Source of the DNA: Candidatus Chlorohelix allophototropha | Lineage (GTDB): Bacteria; Chloroflexota; Chloroflexia; Chloroheliales; Chloroheliaceae | Length of the DNA stretch: 64,000 bases | NCBI RefSeq assembly: GCF_030389965.1 | Contig: NZ_CP128400.1 | Location: 186,001 to 250,000 of the forward strand | Reading direction: 5' to 3' | In this document: positions 5,606 through 60,658 of the stretch, piece by piece | Numbering within the stretch: the first letter of the stretch is position 1 | Layout of the letters: the number at the start of each line of letters is the position of its first letter | Translations under genes and position numbers: made by a program | Notes under the pieces: model-generated | Seen by the model: the letters and a program-made list of their open reading frames with translations, nothing else | Told to the model about the DNA's origin: nothing | The model's database searches: none

Positions 5606-6691
5606 ATGAACAAACTGTATCGAGTAATGTCAGGTTTGTTAGTATCATTGGTGCTGGTTGTAGTTTTAGCGGCTTGTGGCGATAACACTGCTACTTCAGT
5701 TCCCACTACGGCTGCGACCACTGCGGCTGCGACCACCGCCGCTGCAACTACTGTGACTGCGACTACTGCGGCTGCGACTACTGCGGCTGCGACTACTGCA
5801 GCTGCAACTACCGCCGCTGCGACTACCGCCGCTGCTACCAAGACTCCGGCTCCTACCCTTATTGCTACCATTGGCGCTTCATCGTCTACCGCCAAAGTTA
5901 GCCTCAAAGCTCTGCGCTTAGGCGCTATTCCGGCTGAAAACGTTCAGAAAGTATTGAGCGACACCACTCCTTTTGCAACGGCGCTTTCTCAGCAGTTGGG
6001 CATCCAAGTCGAGCTTTTTGTAGGTCCTAGCTACACCTCAGTTATCGAAGCGCTGGCTGCCAATAAACTGGACGTAGCTATCTTTGGTCCTTTCAGCTAT
6101 GTTTTGGCAAGCAGCAAATATAATGCTCAAGTTTTTGCCTTGATGTTAGGTACTAAGGGTGAAAAAACTTACAATAGCTTCATTATCACCACTCCCAAGA
6201 CCGGCATTAAAACCCTTGCTGATTTGAAAGGTCATAGCTTCTCGTTTGTTGACGTAGCTTCCGCCAGCGGTAACTTGGTTCCTCGTTACTCCCTGATTAC
6301 CAAAGCCAAATTAGACCCTGATAAGGACGTAAACGGTGTCTTCACCGGTTCCCACGATGCTTCGCTATTAGCGGTGCAGAGCGGTAAGGTTGATGCCGGA
6401 GCAGTCGCCAGCGACATATTCCAGAAGTACATTGACAACGGCACTGTCAAAGCCGAAGAAATCGTTATAGTTGACAAGAGCTTTGACATTCCCAACAGCC
6501 CTGTAGCCTATCGCAATGACCTGAGCGATACCGACAAGGCTGCTATCAAGAACGCCTTCTTGTCTATTAAAGACACGGCTGCTTTGAATTCAATGGGTAA
6601 TGGCGGTTTTATTGAAGCCACCGAATCTTATTGGGACCCGATCCGCGACATTGCAAAAGTATTGAACGTGGATTTGACCAAGCTGAAGTAA
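5606..6691 (+). CDS. phnD: Phosphonate-binding lipoprotein PhnD
   Basis: A 361-residue substrate-binding lipoprotein. It has a signal peptide (residues 1-23) with lipobox LAAC and lipidated Cys24, then a Thr/Ala linker of about 50 residues encoded by a 15-bp tandem repeat. The PhnD fold follows from about residue 98: LRLGAIPAENVQKVLSD, then KLDVAIFGPFSYVLA, FSFVDVASASGNLVPRYSL and GSHDASLLAVQSGKVDAGAVASD. It would capture phosphonates outside the membrane and hand them to PhnE. AAGGAGAG precedes the ATG, and a strong terminator follows the stop. The PhnD-like domain of the fusion regulator at 536 is a diverged relative. It ends the phnCED transport unit. Confidence 0.95.
   Translation: MNKLYRVMSGLLVSLVLVVVLAACGDNTATSVPTTAATTAAATTAAATTVTATTAAATTAAATTAAATTAAATTAAATKTPAPTLIATIGASSSTAKVSLKALRLGAIPAENVQKVLSDTTPFATALSQQLGIQVELFVGPSYTSVIEALAANKLDVAIFGPFSYVLASSKYNAQVFALMLGTKGEKTYNSFIITTPKTGIKTLADLKGHSFSFVDVASASGNLVPRYSLITKAKLDPDKDVNGVFTGSHDASLLAVQSGKVDAGAVASDIFQKYIDNGTVKAEEIVIVDKSFDIPNSPVAYRNDLSDTDKAAIKNAFLSIKDTAALNSMGNGGFIEATESYWDPIRDIAKVLNVDLTKLK
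5714..5833 (+). repeat. 15-bp tandem repeat, 8 units, in the phnD linker
   Basis: Eight consecutive 15-bp units close to GCGACTACTGCGGCT encode the residues Ala-Thr-Thr-Ala-Ala. Variation is mainly at third codon positions, plus one unit with Val and Thr. The repeat forms the flexible tether between the lipid anchor and the binding domain. Its copy number could change by slippage without breaking the frame. Confidence 0.85.
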
Positions 6692-6705
6692 TTTTCCCCT
6701 TTCTT

Positions 6706-6743
6706 AAAAAAGATGGTTGGTACATACCAGCCATCTTTTTTTT
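6706..6743 (+). terminator. Intrinsic terminator after phnD
   Basis: An inverted repeat AAGATGGTTGGT / ACCAGCCATCTT (one G-U pair, 4-nt loop) is followed by a run of T residues. It begins about 15 bp after the phnD stop and would end the phnCED transcript. Confidence 0.85.
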
Positions 6744-6819
6744 ATCAAGTAAACTCGAAAACCCTTACTTCTCTCATCTTTTTCCCACCGGCGTACAGCC
6801 TAAAACGGCTGGGCAAATA

Positions 6820-6836
6820 TTAACAGCCTCTTAACA
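6820..6836 (+). promoter_or_regulatory. Putative Pho box upstream of the PAP2-phn operon
   Basis: Two perfect TTAACA hexamers (6820-6825 and 6831-6836) are separated by GCCTC, giving an 11-bp period as in PhoP-type Pho boxes. They lie about 135 bp upstream of the PAP2-like gene, which is followed by phnGHIJKLM in the same direction with small gaps. A further ATAACA at 6852 is slightly out of phase. Assignment is by pattern and context. Confidence 0.5.
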
Positions 6837-6969
6837 CTTGAAAACGTAAAAATAACATCCTATTAAATTTTCCTTTATATCTTCCGGCTAATATATTTGT
6901 AGCTAAGTTTATAAAACATTTGCTTATTGCTTTATTCAAGGCAAGCATTAGAGGATGAGGTTGCTAATT

Positions 6970-7617
6970 ATGTTAGAGCAATCCGGTTTAAGAAAACCAG
7001 AATTAATTAAGCCTTCCACTTATTTTATTACAAAGCTTGCCAAGTTTATAACAAATATTACCGCTCCTCCTCTTATAGCTATTCCTTGCTTGATTATTCT
7101 GGGTTTGCAGGATGAGCATAATCGGGGAATCCATAATAATCTTTTTATCAGCCTAGCAATTGCTATTATTTTTGGGGCAACCCTTCCAATTATTCTAGTC
7201 GTGACGATGTATCTTTTAAAAAAGATTAACGATATTCATATCGCAACTAGGGAACAACGTTACGTGCCTTTTCTTCTGACCATAATAAGTTTTATTATTG
7301 GGACTTGTTTGCTTTGGCTTATCACTGGGTTTAGTTGGTTAACAGTGGTGATGGCGAGTTATAGTATTAACACTCTGGTTGTAATGTTAATTAACTTTCG
7401 ATGGAAAATTAGCATTCACGCCACCAGCATTGGGGGAATAGTAGCGGCTTTTACAATGCTAGGTGGCTGGATGGCTACGCCACTGATCAGTATAGTTGGG
7501 TTGGTAACTTGGGCTAGAGTATATTTAAAAGCTCATACTACCGGGCAGGTTTTGGTAGGTAGTTTGTTAGGTTTCTTCTTTACCCTCCTTCAGCTTATTA
7601 TTCTCCTTCAGTCATAA
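6970..7617 (+). CDS. PAP2-superfamily-like membrane phosphatase
   Basis: About 215 residues with roughly six hydrophobic segments. Three short blocks resemble the PAP2 active-site motifs: IHIATREQR (motif 1 style, K...R), KISIHATSIGG (motif 2 style, with the conserved His) and WARVYLKAHTTGQVLVG (motif 3 style, R then H, but Gln in place of the usual Asp). The family removes phosphate from lipid phosphates or undecaprenyl pyrophosphate. The ATG at 6970 is preferred over 6955 because GATGAGG lies 9 bases before it, while 6955 abuts its own purine-rich stretch. A Pho-like box lies upstream and phnG begins 43 bp after the stop, so it may be co-transcribed with the C-P lyase genes. The Asp-to-Gln change leaves activity uncertain. 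Confidence 0.65.
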   Translation: MLEQSGLRKPELIKPSTYFITKLAKFITNITAPPLIAIPCLIILGLQDEHNRGIHNNLFISLAIAIIFGATLPIILVVTMYLLKKINDIHIATREQRYVPFLLTIISFIIGTCLLWLITGFSWLTVVMASYSINTLVVMLINFRWKISIHATSIGGIVAAFTMLGGWMATPLISIVGLVTWARVYLKAHTTGQVLVGSLLGFFFTLLQLIILLQS

Positions 7618-7660
7618 AAATAGCTCCGGTAATAATTAATGAAGTCACATCAATATTTTT

Positions 7661-8119
7661 ATGGCAGGATTTGAACAGGTGGAATCTTTGAATCACCCAC
7701 AAATAAATCATTATCAAATACTGGCGAACTGTGAAGAACTGCTGGTCTGTCAATTGGCAGAGAAAGTTTTGATGGAATATCCCACTGGGCAATTGCGTCT
7801 TCTTAGTGGACCACTACAGGGATTGGTAATGCTGCGTATGAGAGAATCGGTAGAAGATCGTCAGTTCAACGCCGGAGAGATTCTAGTTACTGAAGTTAAA
7901 TTGGAATTGGATGGGCAGTTTGGTTATGGAATGGTGCTGGGCAAGAGCGAACGCCGGGCTATGGCAGTGGCGTTGGTGGATGCCGCTCTTCGTAAAGATG
8001 GTCTGTTGGCTGAGTGGCTTAAAACTGAGCTTGAACGAATCAATGAAATTCTTCTCTCCAATAGGGAGCGCCTTTACCAGATTGTAAATACCACTAGAGT
8101 TGAATTTGAAACAATGTAA
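7661..8119 (+). CDS. phnG: C-P lyase subunit PhnG (operon copy)
   Basis: A 152-residue PhnG with MRESVEDRQFNAGEILVTEVKLEL and GYGMVLGKSERRAMAVALVDAAL, matching the conserved core also seen in the copy at 10-435. It is the first C-P lyase gene of a compact phnGHIJKLM run, and phnH follows after 21 bp. No good ribosome-binding site precedes the ATG at 7661. A TTG at 7688, preceded by AGGTGG, is an alternative start that would remove nine residues not needed for the family match. In known systems PhnG forms a hexamer of heterodimers with PhnH, PhnI and PhnJ. Confidence 0.88.
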   Translation: MAGFEQVESLNHPQINHYQILANCEELLVCQLAEKVLMEYPTGQLRLLSGPLQGLVMLRMRESVEDRQFNAGEILVTEVKLELDGQFGYGMVLGKSERRAMAVALVDAALRKDGLLAEWLKTELERINEILLSNRERLYQIVNTTRVEFETM

Positions 8120-58249: not shown

Positions 58250-58520
58250 TGCAACTTCCTTTTATGTATTATGCATCTGCATGCTAATTATTTATACAAA
58301 TCATTGACAATTCTTTTATAAATTAAATATGTCTACTATAGAGTATTACCTAAGAGAGTTTAAAACAAGTGATAACAAGGATACACTAGGTTAAAAAAGA
58401 GTAAATTAGGGCTATGCTATGGTATGATTTCTGTAGTCCAAGCCACTTACCCTTGGGCAAGGTAACTCTATAATTTACCCATACATAAAAGATTTATCTT
58501 TCTGGAGGAGCTAAACTGTC
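58250..58520. other. Divergent promoter region between SDR and PuhE-fusion genes
   Basis: AT-rich, with TTGACA at about 58302 and AT-rich hexamers (ATATGT, TATAGA) 17-25 bp on. GGAGGAG at 58504-58510 is the ribosome-binding site of the downstream GTG start. No ORF is seen here. Confidence 0.45.
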
Positions 58521-60239
58521 GTGAATTTCTGGATAGATGTTTTACCCTCGGTAGTTGCCGCTATCTTCATCTGGTGGGGTGCAACCGGAATTATTATATA
58601 TTTGTGCGGGCGACGAACTTGGCGACCATGGGTATTCGGCGTGGTTACGCTGGCACAGCCCTTCGCATTCTGGCAAGTGATGGCTACGCGAGACAGCCAT
58701 GATGTTGGCGGGGTATTTGCTCAATTCTTTTGGGCAATTATCATTTGGAGTTGGATAGAAACCAGCTACTACAGCGGTTTTATCGTGGGTCGCAAAAATA
58801 TACCGGAAATTGAACCCGGCACTTCCACGGGTTTGCGTTTTCGCCGTGCCATTGCCGCCAATCTATATCACGAACTGATGATAATCGGCTTGAGTATCGC
58901 GGTTGTTATTGTAGGTTGGGGCGGCAGCAACGAAACCGGCTTGTGGACTTTCATGATTTTGCACTGGACTCACCAATCGGCAAAAATCAACATTTTTCTA
59001 GGTATCAACAACCTCACGACCGAATATCTGCCCGATAACCTGAAATATATGGCACAGTATTTTAGCCAGAAGCCGCTTAACTCTTTCTTTCCTTTTTCTG
59101 CCACAATCTCTACCATCATCGCCACCGCCCTATTTATATCGGCAGCACAGTCTAATACCGCCGGGGAACAAGCCGGACAAGCTTTGCTGTTTGTGTTGAT
59201 GGTTGCCGCCGTCATTGAACATTGGTGGTTGGTTACGCCTGTGCCATCCAAAGCTTGGGATTGGGCGCTGAAAAGCCGCAAAGCCGACCAGCAACAGTTG
59301 CCCACTATTCAGGTAGTCTGTGGCTACTTGGGCAGCGGTAAGACCACCCTTATTCGCCACCTGCTACCGCAATTTGACGAGCGGGTAGCGGTACTGGTCA
59401 ATGACTTTGGCGCAGTAGGGATAGATGCCGAGCTTATCAGGGGCGATAATGCCGCCGGAATGGTGGTTGAGTTGCCGGGCGGATGTGTGTGTTGCACACT
59501 CCAAAAGAATCTGAGCGGACAAATAATCAATTTGCTGGAAACCTTCAAACCTGAAAGGGTAATTATAGAGCCGAGCGGGGTAGCGGGAATCGAAGAAATC
59601 GTCAAAGCGCTTGCCAGCCCACGTTTAGTAAAACGAGTCGCAAATGTGGAAGTAGTGGCGGTTATCGAAGCGCCGCGTTTGCTGGCAGCAGGCGGCTTAC
59701 CTGAGTTTGTGGTGACACAGATAAAGGCAGCTGGGGCAATCGTAATCAGCAAAACCGATTTGGTGCAACCCGGCGAGGTTGGGCGGGTGGCAAAAGTAGT
59801 AAGCGCGTTGAACCACAAAGCGCGAGTTATCACCGCTATAAACGGACAGGTTGCGCTGACTGAATTATTCGCAGTAGCGCCAGAACTTCCCGCAGAGGAA
59901 GAACACGAAGCCCATCAGCATGACGAAGAGAACGGTGGTTTAATCTCTTTCGGGGAAGAATACACCGGAGAATTTGACCCTCAAGCCCTACGCGACCTTT
60001 TTGTCGATCTGCGGGATGGTCATTATGGACCTGTTATACGCGCCAAAGGGATTTTTCATGCACGGGGTGGGCGATTGGCGTGGGATTTAGCCAGCGGTAA
60101 TATCACCGAGCGAATATTAACGCCACCACTACCGGATGAATTACCCGGCGGGCGTTTTATGGCAATCGCCGAAGACCTTACCACCGAACAATTACAAGAA
60201 CGCTTGCAAGGTTGCATTATCCCGGCAGTCAGCCTTTAG
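58521..60239 (+). CDS. PuhE (DUF3623) fused to COG0523 metallochaperone GTPase
   Basis: A 572-residue fusion, GTG start with GGAGGAG 10 bases upstream. Residues 1-250: several membrane helices with the PuhE pattern: FIWWGATGIIIYLCGRR, NLYHELMIIGLSIAV, GLWTFMILHWTHQSAKINIFLG, NLTTEYLPDNLKYM and VIEHWWLVTPVP. PuhE is known from photosynthesis gene clusters as a reaction-centre/photosynthetic complex assembly protein. Residues 260-572: a G3E/COG0523 GTPase with Walker A GYLGSGKTTL (about 268), the CxCC metal motif GGCVCCTL (about 320), SKTD, and a His-rich stretch EEHEAHQHDEE (about 457). COG0523 proteins deliver metals (Zn, Co) or assist cobalamin enzymes (CobW). The fusion suggests a membrane-tethered GTPase supplying metal or cofactor during pigment-protein assembly. 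Domains are clear; the role is inferred. Confidence 0.85.
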   Translation: MNFWIDVLPSVVAAIFIWWGATGIIIYLCGRRTWRPWVFGVVTLAQPFAFWQVMATRDSHDVGGVFAQFFWAIIIWSWIETSYYSGFIVGRKNIPEIEPGTSTGLRFRRAIAANLYHELMIIGLSIAVVIVGWGGSNETGLWTFMILHWTHQSAKINIFLGINNLTTEYLPDNLKYMAQYFSQKPLNSFFPFSATISTIIATALFISAAQSNTAGEQAGQALLFVLMVAAVIEHWWLVTPVPSKAWDWALKSRKADQQQLPTIQVVCGYLGSGKTTLIRHLLPQFDERVAVLVNDFGAVGIDAELIRGDNAAGMVVELPGGCVCCTLQKNLSGQIINLLETFKPERVIIEPSGVAGIEEIVKALASPRLVKRVANVEVVAVIEAPRLLAAGGLPEFVVTQIKAAGAIVISKTDLVQPGEVGRVAKVVSALNHKARVITAINGQVALTELFAVAPELPAEEEHEAHQHDEENGGLISFGEEYTGEFDPQALRDLFVDLRDGHYGPVIRAKGIFHARGGRLAWDLASGNITERILTPPLPDELPGGRFMAIAEDLTTEQLQERLQGCIIPAVSL

Positions 60240-60658
60240 AACAGGGTGCTCTGGCGATATTCTTCAGGTTGGGGCGGTTCTCCGGTTGGAATAGCATAAC
60301 GCGCCAGCAAATCCATATAGCGCAAGCCCCATTCTTCGAGGCTGATTTCAGGCTCGGCATAGGTTTCTTCTCTGGTACGAGCAATCCTGAAATTCTGACG
60401 AATGAGGTGACGCGCTGCCGCTATTGCATCCCGCATGTTAGTTACCATGAGTCTGCCACCCGCCACCTCTTCGGTAGTATGTTCGTGACGCGCCAACCAC
60501 CAGAATGTTTTTAACTGGTTTTCTGCCACGCCAAAGAGCAATCGAATTACCACCAGTTCCACTTCCGGTTTCGGACGATAACCACCGCTACGCAACTTAT
60601 AGGCGGTTCCCTCTTTCGATACTACTCCATCCAGAGGTAGCGGTGGTTGTTCGGGCAT
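60236..60658 (-). CDS. Hypothetical protein
   Basis: A 140-residue soluble protein (KPEVELVVIRLLFGVAENQLKTFWWLARHEHTTEEVAGG). No family recognised. It overlaps the end of the PuhE fusion by 4 bp tail-to-tail and starts directly after the EVE-domain gene. The ORF has a sensible Met start and no internal stops, so it is likely real. The mix of helix and charged C terminus gives no functional clue. Confidence 0.55.
   Translation of the reverse strand: MPEQPPLPLDGVVSKEGTAYKLRSGGYRPKPEVELVVIRLLFGVAENQLKTFWWLARHEHTTEEVAGGRLMVTNMRDAIAAARHLIRQNFRIARTREETYAEPEISLEEWGLRYMDLLARYAIPTGEPPQPEEYRQSTLF

Follow-up and report, generated by a model that had tools for sequence, protein, structure and literature searches.

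The genome of Candidatus Chlorohelix allophototropha encodes a protein of 572 residues in which the photosynthesis protein PuhE is joined, in one frame, to a GTPase of the COG0523 metal-handling family. The gene lies at C2:244521-246236 of this 6,086,194-base genome (five contigs), within the 64,000-base stretch analysed here (the window, C2:186001-250000). We find that the fusion, as judged from sequence searches, spans phototrophs of four phyla, that it probably arose once, and that it is independent of reaction-centre class, tracking instead the synthesis of bacteriochlorophyll. Both halves score above curated cut-offs, in agreement with the domain identities that a preliminary description of the window had proposed from the letters alone. 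The features of the gene, in window coordinates, are as follows (pLDDT, predicted local distance difference test).

58504..58508, + strand: Shine-Dalgarno-like GGAGG, 12 bases 5' of the GTG start (sequence).
58521..60239, + strand: puhE-COG0523 fusion gene, 572 amino acids (open reading frame with a GTG start and no internal stops).
58548..59285, + strand: PuhE/DUF3623 membrane domain, residues 10-255 (Pfam PF12291, 231 bits, cut-off 27; AlphaFold2 pLDDT 89.7).
59310..59831, + strand: COG0523/CobW-type GTPase domain, residues 264-437 (Pfam cobW, PF02492, 134 bits, cut-off 20.7).
59322..59348, + strand: Walker A GYLGSGKTT, residues 268-276 (identity across aligned fused proteins).
59484..59495, + strand: CxCC metal motif (CVCC), residues 322-325 (conservation in fused proteins).
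59880..59933, + strand: acidic/His-rich loop PELPAEEEHEAHQHDEEN, residues 454-471 (sequence; low-confidence stretch of the model).
59964..60215, + strand: CobW_C domain, residues 482-565 (Pfam PF07683, 34 bits, cut-off 22).

The N-terminal 255 residues also pass the NCBIfam equivalog model of PuhE (TIGR03055, 210 bits against a cut-off of 164, residues 12-250), and in satisfying both curated models they resemble the PuhE of the purple-bacterial puh-acsF operon. Unlike that PuhE, the Chlorohelix form has an added C-terminal GTPase, a host with a type I rather than type II reaction centre, and a gene outside any photosynthesis cluster. The GTPase half shares Walker A, CxCC, EPSG, an NKxD-type motif (SKTD in Chlorohelix, with S in place of N) and CobW_C with the COG0523 G3E GTPases YjiA, CobW, ZigA and Nha3. 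It differs from them in that it is membrane-anchored by fusion, belongs to a clade of its own, and falls well below the NCBIfam equivalog cut-offs both for CobW, the cobalt chaperone for cobalamin (TIGR02475, 106 bits against 332), and for the zinc chaperone ZigA (NF038288, 105 bits against 600).

The motifs expected of a GTPase of this family are conserved among fused proteins. The Walker A residues G268, L270, G271, G273, K274 and T275 are identical in 45/45 aligned fused proteins, and 44/45 retain CxCC, EPSG and both the K and the D of NKxD. The single CxCC exception is most likely L106 (Jiella pelagia), whose frame is broken, and in a 35-member alignment without L106 all of these positions are invariant. 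At the L106 locus (5971-8119) the PuhE half is in one frame and the GTPase half in another that overlaps it, as though a frameshift had split the fusion. Pfam matches to DUF3623 and cobW were found in all 35 aligned proteins and to CobW_C in 27 of the 35, and a profile of the fused set matches Escherichia coli YjiA (1nij) with 119 bits across the entire GTPase part. In the PuhE half, the residues invariant in the 35-member alignment include W76, W78, E80, Y84, H117, E118, N137, W149, H151, K155, N157, N164, P171, N187, E233, H234, W235 and P240; some of the residues invariant in the fused set vary in unfused PuhE. The His-rich loop noted in the preliminary description is present, but it is small in Chlorohelix, and among fused proteins it ranges from very long in Aurantimonadaceae to a form with almost no His in Chloracidobacterium. 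Because its length is so variable and its His can be nearly gone, the loop is not essential.

The fusion is not an artefact of assembly, since an independent genome carries it. Among five genomes of the Chlorohelix order, L227-5C ('Ca. Chloroheliaceae bacterium', G403 = L062; a draft of 560 contigs, 94% complete) alone shares a type I reaction centre with Chlorohelix, and it has the same fusion on a contig of 12,549 bases (G403:C87), with 64% identity to the Chlorohelix protein; no protein match was found in the three order genomes that also had no reaction-centre match. Identity between the two proteins is 73% in the PuhE half, 64% in the GTPase domain, 49% in the His loop and 43% in CobW_C. 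In both halves the substitutions concentrate at third codon positions, which indicates selection on each. Apart from response-regulator-type proteins, the two loci have no gene family in common in their flanks, and thus the fused gene has been kept without its surroundings. In Chlorohelix the usual place of puhE beside acsF or puh genes is not kept, and the gene lies outside any photosynthesis cluster. A search of plasmids with the whole fusion protein gave no copy covering 80% of the query.

To determine the distribution of the fusion, we used an alignment of PuhE domains to scan 84,980 species genomes and kept the best 80 of 332 DUF3623 relatives, a sample that leans to the window's protein, which is itself fused. 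Matches to a GTPase-half profile show that 46 of the best 80 are fused, 44 of them near-complete; L064 and L095 were counted as fused, being cut at the contig end with the start of the GTPase present, while L108 and L135, first counted as unfused, have a contig edge directly after the PuhE part. The fused Pseudomonadota include Acetobacteraceae/Acidocellaceae (Acidiphilium, Acidocella and Lichenicoccus), Aurantimonadaceae (Jiella, Aurantimonas and Fulvimarina), Lichenibacterium, Pararhizobium and metagenome-assembled genomes (MAGs) of Ferrovum; beyond this phylum, the fusion was found in Chloracidobacterium, a Blastocatellia MAG, a Gemmatimonadaceae MAG, Kouleothrix and a Herpetosiphonaceae MAG. 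The idea that the fusion is peculiar to Chlorohelix was therefore given up. It had seemed plausible from an initial sample of Chloroflexota, in which 31/400 genomes have DUF3623 and the longest frame outside Chlorohelix is at most 354 residues; the other families of that sample have unfused forms. Of 385 evenly sampled genomes from the class to which Acidiphilium belongs, 27 have DUF3623 above cut-off and five of these, counting the centre genome, have frames of at least 480 residues (fusion checked directly in two of the five), which makes the fusion a sizeable minority. In ten of the 14 genomes with fused loci that were searched whole, nothing but the fused gene matches DUF3623; four have a second match, including one near copy and one fragment. 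In our literature search we found no paper describing the fusion, although most subscription papers were beyond reach, so that a description may exist, and Pfam/InterPro domain-architecture listings may well already show the combination of DUF3623 and COG0523.

The distribution of fused proteins in both trees points to a common origin. On a PuhE-domain tree of 90 rows, 5 changes suffice to explain the fused label, compared to 30 in shuffles, and with four long rows removed, a tree constrained to keep all fused proteins in one group is not rejected and has a slightly better fit (approximately unbiased test, p-AU 0.506). The GTPase tree unites all 44 fused rows in a single clade that excludes seven stand-alone COG0523 proteins, a small set (99% support in the Shimodaira-Hasegawa-like approximate likelihood ratio test, SH-aLRT). 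Thus, a single fusion event probably underlies the family. The GTPase was seemingly lost in at least one lineage within the fused part of the tree (L072). Chlorohelix and Chloracidobacterium, both with type I reaction centres, group together in both trees (98-99% and 93%), but these are long branches and the program warns of false joins. A tree with Chlorohelix among the other fused Chloroflexota is likewise not rejected (p-AU 0.345), so that more than one route of transfer is compatible with the data. According to the original description of Chlorohelix, exchange of genes between the type I and type II groups had not been reported (PMC10972752).

The phototrophic host that had been anticipated is confirmed: type I reaction-centre, BchE and AcsF genes were all found in the Chlorohelix genome, and a search for type II reaction-centre genes found none. 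The fusion is present with type I genes and no type II genes in G000, G403, G407, G409 and G411, and with type II genes and no type I match in G404, G414 and G419 (type I was not searched in Pseudomonadota). Direct pigment-protein assembly of the reaction centre, a reading suggested by the preliminary description, is therefore doubtful, and the presence of the fusion with either type indicates that it tracks bacteriochlorophyll synthesis and not the reaction centre.

Gene order ties puhE to the same pathway. Among the best 80 relatives, an acsF-cluster gene lies just upstream in 35/46 fused loci and in 29/34 others, with a gap that is mostly <100 bases but reaches 455 in Aurantimonadaceae, and hemA follows in many loci. 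The order in Pseudomonadota is bchL-bchM-lhaA-puhABC-acsF-[puhE]-hemA, with the fused gene 3' of acsF; fused and unfused forms hold this same place. At the Acidiphilium rubrum locus, the identities of AcsF and 5-aminolevulinate synthase were confirmed by profiles, and puhA was recognised from a PRCH domain. The Kouleothrix genes run from pufM through a predicted cytochrome, a pucC-like gene, bchG and bchP to fused puhE, and in Chloracidobacterium bchN and bchB lie ~2-5 kb upstream of the fused gene. Three Roseiflexaceae loci (L055, L056 and L061) have a second DUF3623 gene (81 bits) beside bchP in a bch cluster; this paralogue is bchP-adjacent like the Kouleothrix fused gene but, unlike the fusion, is very divergent and unfused. 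In a fourth (L051, 8860-13777), the main unfused DUF3623 gene has a PUCC-family gene on one side and a response-regulator/helix-turn-helix gene on the other.

The AlphaFold2 model of the PuhE half is confident and predicts seven membrane helices (residues 2-29, 36-55, 62-85, 103-132, 139-159, 189-209 and 214-238). Positive charges are commoner in alternate loops, those predicted to be cytoplasmic together with the C-terminus; the seven helices and this charge bias put the C-terminus, and the GTPase attached to it, on the predicted cytoplasmic side, where GTP is. Structure searches with the PuhE half found nothing convincing among solved structures (no Foldseek match better than E 0.98; best VIA Z 6.0). 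The seven helices of the model do not fit the ten-helix transmembrane acyltransferase (TmAT) fold, and the membership of DUF3623 in the TmAT clan has been found unsupported and removed (PMC12423673).

We tentatively favour, at somewhat short of even odds, the reading that the fusion protein is a membrane-anchored metallochaperone for bacteriochlorophyll synthesis. In this model, the seven PuhE helices would hold the GTPase to the inner membrane, next to the enzymes of bacteriochlorophyll synthesis, the GTP-bound GTPase would take up a metal ion on its CxCC site, and GTP hydrolysis would free the metal to a client in the pathway, most likely iron to the diiron cyclase AcsF. The model combines two lines of background. 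COG0523 proteins serve Fe-type nitrile hydratase (Nha3), zinc homeostasis (ZigA, YeiR and YjiA) and cobalt supply (CobW), and they need CxCC (PMC7689651); puhE of Rhodobacter capsulatus has been tied to bacteriochlorophyll production, according to the title of a 2005 paper as cited in PMC11762602. The link between PuhE and a metal-handling family made in the preliminary description is upheld. We infer the AcsF step; what we observed is the anatomy of the protein, its distribution and its shared descent.

Several observations weigh against this model. Many PuhE proteins work without the GTPase; adjacency to acsF is as common for unfused puhE and is therefore a property of puhE, not of the GTPase; and in Chlorohelix acsF (C2:2285332-2286321) is far from the fusion gene. 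AcsF was not detected in the whole genome of L227-5C though BchE is present, possibly a gap of the draft. The full-length structural model (predicted template modelling score, pTM, 0.60) has no reliable domain interface, so the position of the GTPase is not fixed.

The main alternative, nearly as likely as the metallochaperone although still on the unlikely side, is a metal-status switch, in which the GTPase, rather than delivering metal, reports zinc or iron together with its GTP state to PuhE, and PuhE in response turns bacteriochlorophyll synthesis up or down. In most lineages PuhE occurs without a GTPase, which is what would be expected if the GTPase is an added control, and the seeming loss in L072 is consistent with this; against it, the COG0523 proteins of known role are mostly metal suppliers (PMC7689651). 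It is improbable that the two halves are joined merely for co-expression and act independently, with the GTPase a general zinc chaperone. Two further COG0523 genes of the Chlorohelix genome are unfused and such genes are common in many contexts, but the fusion is kept across four phyla and the fused GTPases stand apart from the seven stand-alone ones.

The cobalamin connection offered in the preliminary description, in which the cobalamin-dependent cyclase BchE would receive its cobalt or cobalamin through the GTPase, is weakened and now seems very unlikely. Both fused genomes of the Chlorohelix family do have BchE above cut-off, and L227-5C has it with no AcsF detected. However, in 16 other fused genomes outside this family (several of them drafts; G518 and G702 counted as fused only from the length of the frame), AcsF is above cut-off in 16/16, while BchE is above cut-off in 3/16 with a strong partial match in 2 more, that is, strong in only 5/16, which argues against a BchE-specific role, as does the low CobW score. 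With respect to acsF itself, the gene is missing from most Chloracidobacterium aggregatum strains (PMC12816986).

Least probable of all is that the GTPase guards or performs the choice of metal in the pigment itself, as with zinc, or protects magnesium insertion: Acidiphilium rubrum (L076), which is noted for its zinc-bacteriochlorophyll, carries the fusion, but so do Aurantimonadaceae, Kouleothrix, Chloracidobacterium and Chlorohelix, from which to our knowledge no zinc pigment is known.

Two further observations concern neighbouring genes. In the window, a convergent frame of 140 residues (60236-60658, - strand) overlaps the stop of the fusion gene by 4 bases and has no Pfam match. On plasmid p3 of Azospirillum brasilense (L146, 1660-2634), a stand-alone COG0523 GTPase lies directly upstream of nitrile hydratase genes, as in Nha3-type activators.

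The fusion is of interest because our literature search found no biochemical role for PuhE. Its natural fusion partner, a GTPase from a family that delivers metals, offers a direct and testable clue that PuhE works on a metal-dependent step of bacteriochlorophyll synthesis, and the presence of the fusion with either reaction-centre type argues against a PuhE role tied to the type II centre. With its single apparent origin and its occurrence in both type I and type II lineages, the fusion is also a marker of the movement of photosynthesis genes. It is possible, although on balance we doubt it, that both of the wider propositions hold: that the fused clade is a dedicated membrane-anchored metallochaperone, most likely loading AcsF, and that PuhE serves pigment synthesis in phototrophs of both types and is not an assembly factor of the type II centre. 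If this is true, the single fusion would reflect a photosynthesis gene that the two reaction-centre classes inherited in common or that was transferred between them.
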